From: Nephrocerus scutellatus
Taxonomy: Eukaryota > Arthropoda > Insecta > Diptera > Pipunculidae
Length of the DNA stretch: 64,000 nucleotides
Direction: 5' to 3'
Assembly (NCBI GenBank): GCA_947095585.1
Contig: OX352761.1
Location: forward strand, 111,835,890-111,899,889
Positions 17,725 to 56,449 of this stretch are shown here, one piece after another (position 1 is the first letter of the stretch; each line of letters opens with the position of its first letter). The notes under the pieces were generated by a model. It worked only from the letters and a program-made list of their open reading frames with translations, was not told where the DNA came from and searched no databases. The position numbers and the translations under genes were made by a program.

Positions 17725-20700
17725 TTATCTTGTTGCGTCGAGACTTGCACTCTTCTGCGCAACAAGACTGCCGCGAGTCAGTTGATTCAAGTCAATGATT
17801 GATAGATATGGTTTTGGTGGAACATTGACAGTTGTTTCGCGAGCACCTATACCACCTCCACCTCCAGTCCGGTGATCCCTGCGACTTCTTCTTTCAGTGA
17901 GTTCATTGGAAAACTCCAAATGATCAATCTTTGCCGACCTAATTGTGAGCAACGAGAATGGATCATGGCACCCGCCTGCTGCTGTATGCTGGCGATAATT
18001 TCGATAAGCGCTAAAACTGCTGCCGGGAGCTGCACACCGAATGGGAGAGAAACCCCCTCCTCCCCCCTCATCGGATGAGCCTCCGCTATCGTAGCAAATC
18101 GATAGATTCGTATAACTAATCGGAGCGTAGCATCGTGTTGTCCTGGGTCGTAATTTCACTTCGTAGCGAGTTTTAGAGCGATTACGTGAACGATGCGTTC
18201 TTGGGCGATTGCGCCGCTTGTGCACTATTTCAGGGACGAGTGGAGCTGGCAGATAATTTACAAAACGATAGTATTGCAGGAAAGTGCGGGCCAGGTTTCG
18301 ACCCAGACGAAAATCTACATAAAGGACGACTCAATTAGACGACATTTGGTAGAATATGACAAGCCATTCTTACATCCCTCTTCATTGTAGAGAGCCACAG
18401 TCTTTCTATCCTTGAGCAAGTGTCCACCCATTGATATTTCCAGTGTGTACGCGTTCACCGTATCGCTAAGACGTTCGCAGCAGAATCTCCTCGCAGTGCC
18501 CGCCTTTCGTTCGTCAGCGTTGAACATCATATTCTCTGCTGCGTAATCTTTGGCATTTGCGCTGAACAATCTCGGGAAAACCAGGTGCCGCTCATAGCGA
18601 TAGACATCCTCGTATGTGTTTCCATAGATAAAACTTCCATGAAGGCTAGAGTGTGCGTGTAGGTCAATAACAAAGTCGATTTGATAGGACTGCGATCAAG
18701 AAGAAAGGTTAGATATTTGCACAAAAACAAGAAATTTCATTCACACTCACATCGGAATTGTCAAATTCCCTCAACATTTGCTTGATGGCGAACAATGTCG
18801 GATGTGAGAATTCCGTTGCCAAATGCCATGTGCGATTCAAATCCTGTCCAATGAGATTGCAGCGATTATTCCCTAAAAAAACTCCATCTGGATTGACCAT
18901 GGGAACAATTTTGAAAACGAAATTCGCACGCAAAACATTTGCAATTGGATGATTGGCAATTAGGAATTCAATGAAACCTTGGCACACGTACGATGCAGGA
19001 GTCTCTCCGGGATGAGATCTAGCCAGGATGACAATAACGCGAATAAAGCTACTGCTTTTATCCAACTTGCTGCTGCTGCCGGGTCGTCGTCTACTCACGT
19101 GGTCGACGGTTATCATGTCAAGATTGCGATTTTGCTGCGTGCAGAACGTTAAATAGATATACGGACAATTGGAACTGCTTAGTCTTACCAGAGTCTTTCC
19201 GATGATACTTCGTGTGAAACGCCTCTCAATCGATTTAGCTTCGATAACATTCAGATACGCTTGCAATCGTGAATACGAGTACGGCGGCGACACAGCAAAC
19301 TGATAGACATCATCTTCCTTGTCGAAGGAGAATGCAAAGCTCAGCACATAATGATTTTGATGCAACGCCGAGCGATAGTAGAAGACATGCTTCTTGGGCA
19401 GTCGCTGCCATTTCGGACGACTGGATGATTTCACCAGCGGAGTCAGACATGAATTGAAGAGATTCCGTGTTTTACTGATATTTACAATGTTGAAGAGCAC
19501 CCTTTGGTCTTGCTTGACATTATCCACGGTGAAATTGAACCAGAAACGATGCCGTGGATTGCACGTATCCGGCCGGAGGAATAGATCGTATTCGAAATCG
19601 CCCACTAGATCGGCTTTTCCCAAATTGCCCGTCTCAAAGGCAGCATCAAAACATAAGTGGCCTCGCTTTGCTTTTCCACTGTGTCCCGGCGGACGAATTA
19701 TCACACGCGATACGTTGCCCAATCCTCCTTCTCCGTCGCTATCTTCACTGTCTGAAAGTGTAGTGTGTTGAGATGATCAGAAGAAGAGATTAAAATTAGG
19801 TATCATTATTAACTAAAAGCAAGAAAATATTAATAATTGCACCCTCTTCCATGCGTTGGTACATGCTAGTATGCTGCAATGGATCGCAAGCCACTCCAAT
19901 CATTTTTTGTTTCTGCTAGGTAGAAAGAACCAAATAAGGAGGCACGTAGGATTGTCGACTAATCGTAGAGACTACTGAATAGAATCTAAACTTCCTAGCT
20001 CTGTAATTCGCATCGAATCGGTATGTGTGGCTATTTGAAACTAGACAACGTAGTATGGGCAGCGATGAAGCAAATTCGTGTCAGCTTATTGATGATTGCA
20101 TGCGTCGCGTTTCTTATTAGCATTTGGGTGCTGGCTGTTGCACACAAAGTGTTATGTGTTTGTAGACTTGTGGTTTGTCGTCTCCTTAAAAACACTTCAG
20201 TTTCAAGAGGGTGTGGAAATACTCGTATGTGTATGTACGGTGTAATAAATTACTTTTTGCCTTTCCTTATTGTATTTATCAACTAACTAAGAGGCTTCGA
20301 ACGAATAAGAAGTAGTGGTTTCGTGTAAATTGTTTTCTGGCGTCCTGCGTTACCTGCTTCAGGTGTCCTTACTGTCACACTTCAAATCTATTAAACACGA
20401 AGCGTTCTTTTGATTTTCCTGAATCCCTGCCATTGTGCAGCTGACGGTTGAATGAAATGTGAATTACGAGTACATAGCTAAGGTGAAGCAATCGGTAATA
20501 GAAACCAAAATCATGCTAGTATGCTTCAATACCGATATACGGAGGAACTGTACTTGTCAACTCACAGATTCAGGTGTCCTTACTGTCACACTTCAAATCT
20601 ATTAAACACAAAGCGTTCTTTTGATTTTCTTGAATGTCTTCCATTGAGAACATAGCGATATTCGGAGGAACTGTACTTGTCAACTCACAATTTTATAACA

Positions 20701-26090: not shown

Positions 26091-29000
26091 ATGGACACAA
26101 AAAAGAAGTGTGTGAGCTTTTATTTTTAATTTTTTCGTATTGATGGTGGTGATGATTTATTGAAAAGAAAACAAAATATTATGTGACATCTTTTAGGAAA
26201 TAAATAATTACATCCGCATTGTCAGTGTAGATATAACTACATTTGTTGTTTCATATCCCCTTAATTTTCACTTCTTCCAAAACTACTGTGAATACGTAAT
26301 TTAAATTTCCAACTAGTTACCCTAATAAAAACTTAAATATCTTCTACGTACATTAATATACATATACTATACTTCCTATATACCATCGCTTTCAGCTTTG
26401 TATTTAAACAAATTGAAATTAAATTGCTAACAAATTAATAACCGAATTTGTTTCCAGATTGGGAAGCGTTCGTCCACCAAAACGATACAGAGGCGAAATG
26501 GAAAATTCATCAGCTGCAGATATCGTCATTGTGCATGGAAATTCCCATCCGGATTTGGCCAATCAAGTGGCCGATCGCATGGGATTGAAAAGTGGCGGAT
26601 GTTCAGTTTTCCACAAGACAAATCGTGAGACTATGGTTGAGATTGGCGACTCAGTGCGTGGCAAGGATATTTACATTATACAGACAGGAACAAAGTAAGT
26701 GTGATTTGTGTTAGCGTCTCTTTCATTTCAAATAACAAATATTTCCAATAGAGATGTCAACAATAACATTATGGAATTACTGATTATGGCTTACGCATGC
26801 AAGACATCATCGGCTCGTTCCGTTGTTGGTGTTATTCCATATTTACCATATTCGAAGCAGTGCAAAATGAGGAAGCGAGGTTGCATTGTTACAAAATTGC
26901 TTGCCAAGGTATGAGTGAATGAGTGTAGATTTTCTGATTTCCTATCCGTCGACCTCCGCAGATGATGTGCACATCGGGACTCACACATATTATCACAATG
27001 GATTTGCATCAGAAGGAAATTCAAGGATTTTTCGATATCCCAGTCGATAATCTGAGAGCATCACCATTTTTGTTACAGTACATTCAAGAGTCGGTGAGTT
27101 GGAGTTTTTGCGCTCGTCCTGATTTAATGATGAATGATAATTATTCATATAGATTCCCGATTACCGAAACTCAGTGATTGTTGCCCGAGATCCTGGCTCA
27201 GCCAAGAAGGCAACATCATATGCCGAACGTCTTCGTCTGGCAATTGCTGTCATTCATGGTGAGCAGAAAGAAGCTGAGAGTGATGAAGTCGACGGTAGAT
27301 ATTCACCACCACCAACCAGGTTAGTTGCAGGCAGCTCGATCATACTTATATAATCGGGTATAAAGTTTTGTTCATTTTGCCTATCATGCCTAGATGAACG
27401 CTAGGCAAACTGCTATTTGACTTTTTGATAATATCGTACACAGCTGCATTTAGTAAACCAAAATATGAAAGCTTCTGTTGGTTAGAGGCTGGTTACATTT
27501 TGTTCCTACTTATTTCCTTTCCATCTAACTTAGTGTCTAGTAATTATTGTTCGGTGGTAGTTTCACTTACCTTTTTTAAGTCAAATCATCATCATAAGTT
27601 TTATTTAATTAAACCTAAGTAGGTACATTATTACAATAAGTATTGATATAGAATTATTCTTTTCTTTGCGGCTATAAAATATAAAGCATTTAATTTTGTA
27701 TTTTCATTTCTAGTTAATATACATTTTTAATCTGAAATTATCGTGAAACCTTTATATAAAACTTAGGCTTGATTTACATTTGTGGCGTTTTTGAGCATGA
27801 CGGCTGTTAAATTTAAATTGTAGTTAGCCAGAAGAGAAAAGTAGTATATTCTACCATAATGCTATAGATAACATTTTCAATGTTACTATAAAATAACTAT
27901 AACATTCGTGTAGTGTCAATCTCTTCTGGCTAACCACAACTTCAATTTAACTATAGTCGGCCCGCTCACTTTGTCTCGCACGCCGCAAATGTAAATTTTG
28001 CATTAAGCTTGATTTACATTTGTGGCGTGCGAGAAAAATTAGCAGGACGGCTTTTAAATTGATATTGTAGTTAGCCAGACGAGAGAAGTAGTATATTTTT
28101 CAATTTTACTATAATGCTATAGACAACTATAAAGTAACTATAACATTCGGCATCGGCTTCCTTTTGTCATCCTATTGTTTTTCACCTTCGTACACTTTTC
28201 GTGTGAGCTAGCCCCAGATATTTTCTATACATTTGACCACATTTGAAACAACTCTTCTTAAGAGAACGCTTTTTAGATTGCAACAAAATGTTTTCTCTGT
28301 TGCTACAATGTGATTATTTAACGAGCATTGAACATTTACTGAAATCAGTCTGTTAAAAGTAAAAGTAATACGGCTTGCTGTATGCTCTTCGTTACTCTTA
28401 GAACAATATCTATACGACGTTTTTCTATCCGCCAACTATAAAGTAATTAATTCTCTGTGTGGTACGCTAATGAACTGTTTCGTTGTGTCCTATGTATTGC
28501 ATACTCCACTCCAAATGTAATTTCATTTCATTTTTCCTTAAATCGCATTTTAGTTTGATCATATTTTGGTTTGTTTTTCTTATTTTTAAGTCCAATTTTT
28601 TGTAAAATTAACAATCAAAAAGATCAAAAACAAAAAAAACAAACAATTTTTTATCTGTTACACAGTACATATATCGATGATTTGATAGGAAATTCAGTTG
28701 TTGAAATGTGCTTTCCGTCAAACCCTAGGTTTGTATTGTTTTCTTTTTTACAATATATTTCTATATATATAAATTAATATAAATTATGTTTTTATACATT
28801 TTTTAAAAACATGCTTTATTGGATATTCATATTACTAATTTAATTTATTTTACTACTTATGTATAGTATACAATAGTTAAGTTAAGCAATTAATTGAACT
28901 TAAATGCTGGCGTTCCCCAGGGCTCTGTTTTGTCCCCGACACTTTTTCTCATTTTTATTAATGATCTCTTATCTGTGAATTTTCATCCAATTCACTCTTT

Positions 29001-31415
29001 CGCTGACGACAGCACTCTCAGCTTATCATATAACTTTGAGGACGTCTCTTCGCATCTCATGTGTAACTCAAACAACTACGTATGTTAAGCAACGCTAAAT
29101 TCCGACCTTGACTGAATACAAAAAAAAACAATAGAGGATAAACACTGGAGTTCTCTCGGTGCGTAGAATCAATCGTCATAGGAATGCGTTAAAAATTTTG
29201 TCTGGTCAGTGGTGCTCCTAAGACCCCATACATCTACTAGACAGTATTTGGAACTGCGAAAAACAAAGCTTATTTGCTGAACATCGTAGGAATAATATTT
29301 CCTGTAAATATTTAAAAAAAACACTAAATAACTGTTCATTTGGTTAATAATAAATCAAATCTATGTTTGCCAGTGGGTAAGCGTGGCCGAACAGCTAAAG
29401 TTTACTATAAATAATTGCTTTAACTACTAAAATATCCGGTATTTTAATAATAAGGTCTACTCCTTTTCAACCTGATTGCAATTGCGTCTTCCCAAATTTC
29501 ACCATTACGCAGTAACAATAATATCGGCGCGACAGACCATCCGGTCCAAGGCCTAACTTCTCGCAACCATTTGTGTTGAGCATGCATATTTTTGCACACA
29601 AATGGAGGGACCTACAATTTAATCCTATCCACTGAGCCACAGCGCCCACTCCATTACTAACTTTTCTTTATTGTAGATTAACTCCCCTCTTGTTTCAGTA
29701 GCAAATTCAACGTTAGGACCCTCCACAATTGCATCAACTGGACATGCTTCTTGGCAAAGCCCGCAGTATATGCATTTTGTCATATCAATATCATAGCGCG
29801 TGGTGCGACGACTATCGTCCTTCGTTTACGTTCGTATCGTTTACGTAGTTAAAGCTTCGATTTGAGCTCCCCATCGTAAAGTAGTTTATCCACCCTCTCA
29901 ATATTGGATTGATAGTTTTTATCATTTTCCTTATTGGTTGCGATTTATGTCTTCGAAATACCTCCTTCAGTTGCTGAAGCAAATTTGTTCGAGCTTTCAA
30001 TCATTGGTGTTCTTTGTACGCTCCACTTTCCTTGTTTTGTGATTCTCTCTTGTAACCTTTCGTACACTAACTTCTGATATACCTAGATATGATAGTCTGT
30101 AAAATTTTAATATCATTAAAATTGGCCCTGGATATGGTGCATTAACAAGAGAACTATTGGTGCATAATCCAAAGTCTCTACTTTCTATAGGAAAAGATAG
30201 AGATTTAGTAAAACACCATGATCAATCATCAATTGCTAAATGAGCATCAAGGAAAGTATAGAATTATAGAAGTGGATTCAATGCATGTTATAGAAGAAGA
30301 GCTGCGAGAGCGCCCAGTCAAACTTATCGCTAACTTGCCTCACAATATCTCGGTAGTGTTATTTTTTAAGTTGTTAAATAATATAAAATTCTTTAAGAAC
30401 TTGACATTAATGTTCCAAAAAGAGGTAGCAGATCGCATTACGGCAAGACCAAATTCTAAAGATTATGGTCCCTTACCAGTGCTAAGCCAGTTACTATGTG
30501 ATATAAAAAAGGAATTTGATATTGAACCAAAAGAGTTTTTTCCAAGACCAAAAATACATTCTTCAGTAAGAACAGTAAATCTTTGCATAATCCAAAGTTT
30601 GCTGTAAATTTGAAAACCTTAACAAGATTACCACGTGCCGTTTTTGCTCAAAGAAGAAAAAAAAAATAGTTTACAGACTTAAATACGTTTAGTACTTGCC
30701 TATTATGTATATTATAGATATGGATTTATATTTATTTTTAAGAAACGAACCTTGTTCCTTTCATGCACTTACAAAACAAAATTTTTATGTACTCCGTTTA
30801 ATTGTATGCAATAATTTCGGATTCAACAAACTTAACAAATTAGCCGAACCCGTACCATAAGCGTGTCAGTAGGTGTACCTGGACATCCGCCCAAAGAAAA
30901 GCCGCCTATTAATGTCGTGGGAGATGTTAAAGGACGTATTGCTATCATGGTGGTAAGTTTTGTTTGACCAAAATATAAATTAGTTTATTCTAAGTGTATA
31001 AATACAATAAATACTTTCTATTCCCTTATTAGGATGACCTTATCGATGACGTTCAAGCATTTGTTGCAGCCGCCGAAGTGTTAAAGGAGCATGGTGCTTG
31101 TAAAGTTTACGTCCTCGCCACACATGGTTTACTCAGTTCGGATGCACCACGTTTGATTGAGGAATCGCTTATTGATGAGGTTACTTTGCAACAAATGGGA
31201 ATAATTTATTTTCTTTATTATTTATTCTTTTTTTTTTAATTTTTCAAATGGCACAGGTCGTGGTCACCAATACCATTCCACACGAAATCCAAAAGTTACA
31301 ATGTCATAAAATCAAAACAATTGACATCTCAATACTGATAGCTGAAGCCATTCGAAGGATTCACAATAAGGAATCGATGTCGTATCTGTTCCGGAATGTT
31401 ACATTAGAGGATTAA
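26091..31415 (+). CDS. PRPSAP: PRPP synthetase-associated protein (PRPSAP), spliced
   Basis: A catalytically inactive relative of ribose-phosphate diphosphokinase that associates with and restrains the PRPP synthetase complex. Exons: 26091-26107, 26458-26694, 26752-26908, 26962-27093, 27153-27319, 30844-30952, 31033-31179, 31257-31415; all phases agree, 374 aa. Conserved segments include [75 protein letters not shown] and [25 protein letters not shown] rather than active synthetase is shown by KQCKMRKRG at the ATP loop and by the inserted [19 protein letters not shown] linker where PRPS has its catalytic flexible loop. The first exon depends on a weak GTGTGT donor; an in-frame ATG at 26498 (MENSS, 355 aa) is an alternative start. 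The gene looks intact. Drosophila CG2246 is the likely orthologue (from memory). Confidence 0.9.
27769..28004. mobile_element. MITE-like foldback, copy 1
   Basis: Terminal sequences GATTTACATTTGTGGCGT (27771-27788) and ACGCCGCAAATGTAAAT (27980-27996) are inverted repeats. The interior also folds: GTAGTTAGCCAGAAGAG on the left and CTCTTCTGGCTAACCAC on the right are near-perfect complements. No coding capacity. Confidence 0.7.
28009..28190. mobile_element. MITE-like foldback, copy 2 (3' truncated)
   Basis: Immediately after copy 1 and in the same orientation, it starts TTGATTTACATTTGTGGCGT and repeats GTAGTTAGCCAGACGAGAG and CTATAATGCTATAGACAACT, but lacks the right terminus. A head-to-tail pair with one damaged unit. 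Confidence 0.65.
28893..29300 (+). mobile_element. Jockey-like LINE fragment
   Basis: Opens exactly at [20 protein letters not shown] (28897 on), continues with a [10 protein letters not shown] motif (29008-29040) and ends by stop and frame loss. A later word at 29155-29185 (TCTCTCGGTGCGTAGAATCA) is shared with 32088-32115. Same family as 21484-21730 and 49490-49722. Confidence 0.7.
29510..29652 (-). mobile_element. tRNA-derived SINE, internally deleted copy
   Basis: On the minus strand the element opens with a tRNA-like head containing the RNA polymerase III A box TGGCTCAGTGG (29639-29629). The B box is missing, and the body continues with a segment shared with the SINE at 56157-56449 (AGGTCCCTCCATTTGTG, AGGCCTTGGACCGGATGGTC, TGTCGCGCCGATATTATTG). 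It abuts the bacterial-like nuoI fragment. Confidence 0.7.
29650..29822 (-). pseudogene. nuoI: Bacterial-like nuoI (NADH dehydrogenase I chain I) fragment
   Basis: Fifty-seven uninterrupted codons encode the second half of the 8-iron ferredoxin-like subunit: [34 protein letters not shown], and [19 protein letters not shown]. The C-x2-C-x2-C-x3-C cluster motif for a 4Fe-4S centre is intact. Sequence type is alphaproteobacterial, closest in my memory to Rickettsiales (Wolbachia). It is cut at the left by a SINE and at the right (from 29822) by group II intron maturase sequence. A nuclear or mitochondrial fly gene (ND-23) is an alternative, but codon use and the adjacent rsmA piece favour bacterial origin. 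The fragment cannot make a full protein. Confidence 0.75.
29812..30000 (-). pseudogene. Group II intron reverse transcriptase/maturase, C-terminal fragment
   Basis: About 60 codons read [38 protein letters not shown] and SFNYVND. The INPxLRGWxNYF motif is the hallmark of the maturase (domain X) region of bacterial and organellar group II intron proteins. It directly joins the nuoI fragment (same strand) and precedes the rsmA fragment (opposite strand). Upstream sequence (30001-30095) contains no further readable maturase. Group II introns are abundant in Wolbachia and related symbionts. Confidence 0.75.
30115..30680 (+). pseudogene. rsmA: Bacterial-like rsmA/ksgA (16S rRNA dimethyladenosine transferase), frameshifted
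   Basis: Encodes the bulk of the methyltransferase that dimethylates two adenosines in 16S rRNA. The SAM motif [13 protein letters not shown] (30121) is present; the catalytic motif reads NLPHNIS, with His where NLPYN is expected. It then matches the family through [36 protein letters not shown] and [12 protein letters not shown], ending with AQRRK and a NSLQ-like remnant. A 7-bp insertion near 30220-30226 and a one-base loss near 30580-30586 change the frame, and the N- and C-terminal ends are missing. Sequence type is Rickettsiales, most like Wolbachia. It is dead in the host genome. Confidence 0.85.
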
Positions 31416-45640: not shown

Positions 45641-46311
45641 TGTTTGTTTGTTTGTTTGTTTGTTTGTTTGTTTGTTTGTTTGTTTGTTTGTTTGTTTGTT
45701 TGTTTGTTTGTTTGTTTGTTTGTTTGTTTGTTTGTTTGTTTGTTTGTTTGTTTGTTTGTTTGTTTGTTTGTTTGTTTGTTTGTTTGTTTGTTTGTTTGTT
45801 TGTTTGTTTGTTTGTTTGTTTGTTTGTTTGTTTGTTTGTTTGTTTGTTTGTTTGTTTGTTTGTTTGTTTGTTTGTTTGTTTGTTTGTTTGTTTGTTTGTT
45901 TGTTTGTTTGTTTGTTTGTTTGTTTGTTTGTTTGTTTGTTTGTTTGTTTGTTTGTTTGTTTGTTTGTTTGTTTGTTTGTTTGTTTGTTTGTTTGTTTGTT
46001 TGTTTGTTTGTTTGTTTGTTTGTTTGTTTGTTTGTTTGTTTGTTTGTTTGTTTGTTTGTTTGTTTGTTTGTTTGTTTGTTTGTTTGTTTGTTTGTTTGTT
46101 TGTTTGTTTGTTTGTTTGTTTGTTTGTTTGTTTGTTTGTTTGTTTGTTTGTTTGTTTGTTTGTTTGTTTGTTTGTTTGTTTGTTTGTTTGTTTGTTTGTT
46201 TGTTTGTTTGTTTGTTTGTTTGTTTGTTTGTTTGTTTGTTTGTTTGTTTGTTTGTTTGTTTGTTTGTTTGTTTGTTTGTTTGTTTGTTTGTTTGTTTGTT
46301 TGTTTGTTTGT
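45641..46311. repeat. TTTG tetranucleotide microsatellite, 671 bp, perfect
   Basis: About 168 uninterrupted copies of the 4-base unit. Because 4 and 3 share no factor, each frame repeats a 4-codon cycle. The plus strand reads as Cys-Leu-Phe-Val and the minus strand as Lys-Gln-Thr-Asn repeats without stops, producing long but meaningless open frames. Confidence 0.97.
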
Positions 46312-56156: not shown

Positions 56157-56449
56157 ATAAATAATAATAATATTAATCGGCGCGACAGACTATTGCGGTC
56201 CAAGGCCTAGCTTTGTGTTGCGCATCTATATTTTTGGCCACAAATGGAAGGGACCTATAATTTAAGGCCGGATCTGAACGGCGAATTTAGAAGAGCTCTC
56301 CGTGACAAGTTATTGCTCTCGGAACGTTTGTCATCCATTCGCGAGAGGTGGGACACCGTGAAAAATACTTTTGGTGTTACTGGGATTCGAACCACGAACC
56401 TCCTGCTCAGTAGCCATGTGCACTTCCACTGAGCCACGGCGCCCACCTT
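56157..56449 (-). mobile_element. tRNA-derived SINE
   Basis: On the minus strand the head reads GGCGCCGTGGCTCAGTGG, with A box TGGCTCAGTGG (56436-56426) and B box GGTTCGAATCC (56393-56383), both matching RNA polymerase III internal promoter consensus. A unique body follows, shared in part with 29510-29652, and an ATT-rich tail lies at 56175-56157. Length is about 290 bp. The 29.5-kb copy lacks the B-box portion. No partner LINE was identified from the tail. Confidence 0.85.

Follow-up and report, generated by a model that had tools for sequence, protein, structure and literature searches.

An intron of the PRPSAP gene of the fly Nephrocerus scutellatus holds a nuclear Wolbachia insertion (NUWT) at 29444-30681, which was very probably put together from short stitched fragments of symbiont DNA, joined by their ends and later decayed. 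Positions are those of the window, i.e. the whole stretch of 64,000 nucleotides that was analysed (C1:111,835,890-111,899,889 in a genome of 613 Mb and nine contigs), and the locus is placed ~111.87 Mb along a 142-Mb contig. The inserted sequence groups among those of Wolbachia (tree support 99), is embedded in host nuclear sequence, and its genes are disabled.

Host gene and intron

The host gene is PRPSAP. Successive parts of the Pfam Pribosyl_synth profile are matched by 27153-27317 (profile positions 1-52), 30845-30952 (55-89) and 31033-31236 (90-141), the first and the last of which also match the solved PRPSAP1 and PRPSAP2. Exon phases agree across the intron, whose limits follow from a GT at 27320 and an AG at 30842-30843:

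27153..27319, + strand: PRPSAP exon 5' of the intron (Pribosyl_synth 1-52, E 2e-25; solved PRPSAP2, E 2e-20; GT donor at 27320)
27320..30843, + strand: host intron carrying the insert, 3524 bp (GT at 27320, AG at 30842-30843, exon phase)
30844..30952, + strand: PRPSAP exon 3' of the intron (Pribosyl_synth 55-89, E 3e-10)

An earlier sequence-only reading had the host exons splicing properly across the bacterial DNA, and the GT and AG, the exon phase and the order of the profile matches all agree with it. Its proposal that this DNA is integrated in the host chromosome also stands, with PRPSAP exons on both sides, a host SINE nested in the insert and a contig of 142 Mb around it.

The same PRPSAP intron also contains the remnant of a reverse transcriptase (28894-29085; RVT_1, E 6e-7) and, at 27760-28170, foldback-type repeats whose copies, both direct and inverted, are 71-77% alike. 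Elsewhere in the window there are a cytosolic carboxypeptidase-type gene on the minus strand (18318-19776; Peptidase_M14 and its N-terminal domain) and a perfect TGTT tandem array (45641-46311; 168 copies, 100% matches), and Rfam gave no match in the window at the gathering threshold.

Pieces of the insert

Wolbachia DNA extends over 29444-30681, minus one host SINE and short joints, and its parts are the following:

29444..29510, - strand: nuoI 3' end with stop codon, left of the SINE (93% to genome G012 over 73 bases; 4 private substitutions in 66 sites)
29651..29819, - strand: nuoI, mid-gene up to the SINE (94% to G012 over 173 columns; NuoI family, E 1e-34)
29820..29839: joint between nuoI and maturase, 20 bases (no consistent match in the Wolbachia alignments; individual relatives extend to 29827 or begin at 29836)
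29840..30075, - strand: group II intron maturase, 3' end (96%, 95% and 87% to genome G040 in three pieces; PF08388, E 5e-14)
30076..30089: joint between maturase and rsmA, 14 bases (no match in the Wolbachia alignments)
30090..30681, + strand: rsmA (ksgA), middle to near the 3' end, cut at both ends (92% to G012 and G038 over 571 columns; ksgA, E 5e-32)

The three genes that had been read within 29650-30680 (rsmA, nuoI and the maturase) are indeed there, as DNA-level matches to Wolbachia and as protein-level matches to NCBIfam ksgA at 30212-30604 (+, E 5e-32), to NuoI at 29625-29822 (-, E 1e-34) and to PF08388 at 29812-30000 (-, E 5e-14). The last of these is above its cut-off, while the ksgA and NuoI scores are under the curated whole-protein cut-offs, as expected because these are fragments. 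As for the span then proposed, its right end holds (~30681) but its left end does not: the Wolbachia DNA starts ~200 bp further left, at 29444, because 29444-29510 is more nuoI beyond the host SINE. A bacterial origin was correctly recognized in what was taken for one segment of ~1 kb; the segment is, however, a mosaic of three pieces.

When the intron (27320-30842) was compared with ten Wolbachia genomes, no matches were found outside the nuoI, maturase and rsmA pieces. Compared with copies in Wolbachia, the maturase piece is ~80 bp short near 30051, and 29836-30050 gives a contiguous match of 83% to genome G013. In rsmA there are a 7-bp insertion near 30222, a 1-bp loss near 30582 and a 5-bp loss near 30661. 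Inspected by eye, the joint at 29820-29839 bears a second CGTTTACGT, a 9-base word, next to the copy at the edge of the maturase. Templated end joining is able to yield such word repeats at joints, and from its sequence the second copy could possibly be templated filler.

Identity of the donor

The donor is Wolbachia. DNA matches to 29600-30700 were obtained in all 41 genomes in the genus of Wolbachia strain wOc, the best of them being 92% for rsmA (E ~1e-240), 94% for nuoI and 95-96% for the two longer pieces of the maturase. The former assignment to a Rickettsiales-type bacterium was right but coarse, and these matches, along with the rsmA tree, narrow it down to Wolbachia. An insect nuclear gene of mitochondrial type was rejected as a source in view of the best matches, at 92-96% to Wolbachia DNA, in searches of Wolbachia genomes.

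Nine genomes are best for rsmA (90-92%), with nuoI at 91-94%. Since two genomes of the sister clade (G016 and G020) also reach 94% for nuoI, this gene by itself fails to pick out the nine. The rsmA tree, built with the 30 of the 41 Wolbachia genomes in which the locus was returned, joins the window to the nine with a support of 99, on a branch of 0.093, the terminal branches of the nine being 0.000-0.017. The window falls inside the nine, after G030 and G031 have split off (95 and 89), at an exact place that is poorly supported.

The ftsZ primers that are used to tell supergroups A and B apart (PMC10472523) were searched for as exact sites. The A site is present in four of the nine closest genomes, the B site in two (G030 and G031) and neither in three, whereas the B site is found in 8/9 genomes of the sister clade; over all 41 genomes the A site occurs in 5, including G008, which belongs to neither clade, and the B site in 10. 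These counts make supergroup A likely rather than proven. The donor probably belonged to it, given primer sites in the nine-genome set that are more A-like than B-like, the set itself having been defined with one short gene (rsmA). A-type Wolbachia are reported as dominant in Diptera and Hymenoptera (PMC9894559).

A host SINE nested in the insert

The nuoI piece is interrupted by a host SINE at a point where the Wolbachia sequence is continuous:

29502..29510: putative target-site duplication, left copy (imperfect), CCATTACGC, Wolbachia bases (alignment with G012)
29511..29650, - strand: host SINE, putatively of tRNA type, internally deleted copy (genome copies; alignment with 19 other copies; ends good to a few bases)
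29651..29657: putative target-site duplication, right copy, CCATTAC (next 4 Wolbachia bases missing)

The duplication is exact over 7 bp (CCATTAC) and can be extended only by assuming a loss of 4 bp. No match to 29511-29650 was found in ten Wolbachia genomes. In the host genome the family numbers 1984 first-look candidates, of which 40 received a score, namely the window copy and 39 others, the latter at 96-98% over 107-114 bases. Alignment with the 19 copies revealed the internal deletion in the window SINE and longer relatives with A- and B-box-like words, TGGCTCAGTGG (A-box-like, in the window SINE) and GGTTCGAATCC (B-box-like, in the longer copies), labelled after what we take to be the A- and B-box motifs. 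ARAGORN found no tRNA in the SINE at default settings and one '???' at relaxed settings. The window SINE differs from the majority of copies at 2 of 105 sites, neither of them strictly private, a figure that serves as a guide only because the copies compared are the best-scoring ones. A second copy of the family, more diverged (77% over the main match), lies at 56176-56446 in the window.

The position of the SINE within the nuoI piece means that its jump postdates integration, which argues strongly against a contaminating contig and in favour of age. An assembly error, or contaminating DNA of a Wolbachia carried by the sequenced animal, could draw on the presence of the joined sequence at one place only; yet this explanation has to face the nested SINE, a frame-breaking insertion and losses that are absent from 11 Wolbachia rsmA rows among the matches listed, and a site deep in a 142-Mb contig, and we regard it as very improbable. 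A multi-copy host mobile element carrying bacterial genes was also ruled out, 29650-30680 occupying a single place in the host genome.

Decay and age

Along 585 sites of rsmA there are 35 private substitutions (95% interval 4.2-8.2%), of which 12 are synonymous, 22 missense and 1 a stop, with 8.2 +- 2.4 synonymous changes expected at random (P 0.08 for at least 12). The gene has thus evolved nearly neutrally, with a slight synonymous excess. This excess, and the fact that 11 of the 35 private states are found in some other Wolbachia, suggest that the branch may in part reflect divergence that an unsampled donor had already undergone, and a few of the 35 changes may be donor variants. In nuoI, 9 of 224 sites carry private changes. 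Rates in flies are ~3-5e-9 per generation, and a divergence of ~5% would amount to the order of ten million generations, as a rough guide only. The decay of rsmA had already been read as a sign that integration is not recent, and the 35 private substitutions, the frameshifts and the nested SINE lend weight to that view; a recent or contaminating segment is ruled out by the SINE and the decay.

The genes are disabled by frameshifts, by truncation at both ends and by the stop in rsmA, and the insert is without function as a gene. A functional transferred gene, for example one giving a working rsmA-derived protein, might be argued for from the open frame of 131 codons that persists at 30212-30604. 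An intact frame under selection would be expected of it, and what is found is a frameshifted sequence, truncated at both ends, with near-random substitutions and located in an intron, so that we give this explanation practically no weight.

Origin of the stitched structure

The insert consists of three non-adjacent gene pieces, which are distant from one another in the living relatives that were compared. The distance between nuoI and rsmA is 369-806 kb in all nine closest genomes, measured the shorter way round, and the best maturase match, at 118-120 kb in G040 with an interruption of ~1.5 kb there, is far from both. The relative orientation of nuoI and rsmA is that of the window in six of the nine genomes (G012, G034, G036, G040, G006 and G030) and unlike it in three (G038, G035 and G031). 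The maturase of G040 is flipped with respect to both of these genes. In the actual donor the maturase, a mobile gene, could have been a neighbour of nuoI or of rsmA.

The main rival to a stitching of fragments is the insertion of one large Wolbachia segment, later eroded by many deletions and inversions to three adjoining remnants. There are precedents for large inserts (Glossina has two of ~0.5 Mb; PMC3998919), the loss of ~80 bp inside the maturase piece would fit with erosion, and the orientation shared with 6/9 genomes leaves a large insert eroded by deletion possible as far as nuoI and rsmA are concerned. Nevertheless, it would require the loss of at least ~0.4 Mb from between remnants that share one intron, and the flipped maturase of G040 does not favour it either; we consider this course of events unlikely. 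Next in rank comes a donor in which, after rearrangement, the pieces already lay side by side and from which one contiguous fragment moved. Wolbachia genomes are much rearranged (PMC3998919), the spacing between nuoI and rsmA differs among them, and maturase-like sequence is multi-copy in G040, as are the repeats at two loci described below (C5 and C3). Such a donor would, however, have been a living symbiont with two housekeeping genes both cut mid-gene, the spacing is at least 369 kb in 9/9 relatives, and the end of the maturase adjoins mid-nuoI without the remainder of the group II intron, all of which makes this less likely still.

In the reading that we favour, short pieces of broken Wolbachia DNA would have been joined together in the germ line and put into a chromosome break by end joining. 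The mechanics of the junctions are something that we infer, including that the joining took place before or during capture. Once integrated, the insert would have drifted as non-coding DNA, spliced out with the intron, and the host SINE would have jumped into it. This capture of fragments has seemingly been repeated in the same genome.

Other Wolbachia-derived loci in the genome

When the 12 kb surrounding rsmA in Wolbachia (L001) were used to search the host genome, the window was recovered along with five more matches, distributed over four other loci and in some cases weak. Those at C3 (61 bits) and C2 (55 bits) are within the range of the control described below (best 62 bits), and one at C1:17.8 Mb (67 bits) is marginal. 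The C3 locus was later borne out by its pieces, and that on C2 only by a neighbouring match of 41 bp.

Three loci were compared with whole Wolbachia genomes (the window, C5 and C3) and all of them look stitched. At C5:51.82 Mb (C5:51819500-51824500; L161 1150-2589), a multi-copy Wolbachia repeat (94%) lies next to a collagen-like Wolbachia gene (86%). Two pieces that 14 bp separate in G040 are split here by a stretch of 467 bp; it has a GGGTGTTTTTTT-type end, and parts of it recur at another locus of the host. As the repeat is multi-copy and could neighbour the collagen-like gene in the donor, C5 is weaker evidence for a mosaic. At C3:94.66 Mb (C3:94658368 region; L159 1486-2790), at least four Wolbachia pieces abut within 4 bases, the last of them of 784 bp and two of them multi-copy. 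In G040, two of the touching pieces lie on opposite strands with 587 kb between them, which counts against the erosion of a large insert, because deletion alone would be insufficient there and inversions would be needed. The case against transfer from a rearranged donor is weakest for pieces that are multi-copy repeats (C5 and part of C3).

With an arbitrary 12-kb stretch of G012 as the query, six matches came up, each at a different place (65-164 bp, 85-98%, 74-251 bits):

C1:53808106, C2:20343336, C2:84574022, C4:40385045, C1:123913556, C4:1137955: six short Wolbachia-like stretches (arbitrary 12-kb query)

For a 12-kb non-Wolbachia control (L076; GC 0.24, versus 0.36 for L162), none of the 33 matches exceeded 62 bits or 77% identity; 30 of them were in one C6 tandem array, two were at single places and one was the window rsmA, matched at 69% by the rsmA that the control contains. 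All six matches of the arbitrary query outscore every control match, and their identities suggest several ages. Six matches per 12 kb, extended to a Wolbachia genome of 1.58 Mb, would come to several hundred in all if evenly distributed, a figure derived from one arbitrary sample.

We tentatively propose, as an idea that is quite possible though still short of probable, that the genome holds several hundred mosaic Wolbachia inserts of differing ages, made of pieces of ~40-800 bp from far-apart symbiont sites with near-gapless joints, and that shattered symbiont DNA has repeatedly acted as filler in germ-line break repair. If true, this would be a route of transfer unlike the large contiguous insertions that are usual in insects, and would leave a layered fossil record of past infections. 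One chromosome-scale assembly would then provide many joints and ages for asking how endosymbiont DNA enters animal chromosomes, and also a test of successive Wolbachia infections in the host.

Comparison with known systems

Nuclear Wolbachia inserts are well known from the literature, short and decayed in nematodes and large in tsetse (PMC3998919, PMC4046930, PMC12693587). What would be new here is the stitched structure at three loci and the apparent abundance. No title on mosaic Wolbachia inserts was among the matches listed in literature searches that had most subscription papers outside their scope, nor was there one on the junction mechanism of such inserts or on elements nested in them, which is no proof of absence. 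The joints indicate that symbiont DNA can reach the chromosome as stitched fragments, and the nested host element shows that its lineage had carried Wolbachia by the time the element jumped.

One of the closest known parallels is the pseudogenised Wolbachia DNA in the chromosomes of the fly Glossina morsitans, where two main segments of 527,507 and 484,123 bp are accompanied by a third insert of 2,089 bp with six pseudogenes (PMC3998919). The identity to the resident symbiont is high there, while the insert described here is of 1.2 kb, has three stitched pieces and is ~4-8% away from the closest genome compared. In Drosophila ananassae, Wolbachia DNA is likewise found in a fly chromosome, although it is large and extensively duplicated, in contrast to the tiny insert at one place reported here (PMC4299567). 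Short disabled fragments that are taken as relics of past infection, as in our case, have been described in the lungworm Dictyocaulus viviparus (PMC4046930) and in filarial nematodes (PMC12693587); in the latter, the matched regions number 12 to 653 per genome prior to filtering. These hosts are, however, nematodes, and the words 'mosaic' and 'non-contiguous' do not appear in the main text of PMC4046930, nor does 'composite' in that of PMC12693587. Lastly, bacterial DNA occurs together with host transposable elements in Curculio weevils as it does here, but the pieces reported in that case are derived from Rickettsia and lie inside Maverick elements, some of them amplified, whereas in the PRPSAP intron it is a SINE that landed in an insert present at a single place (PMC13419823).
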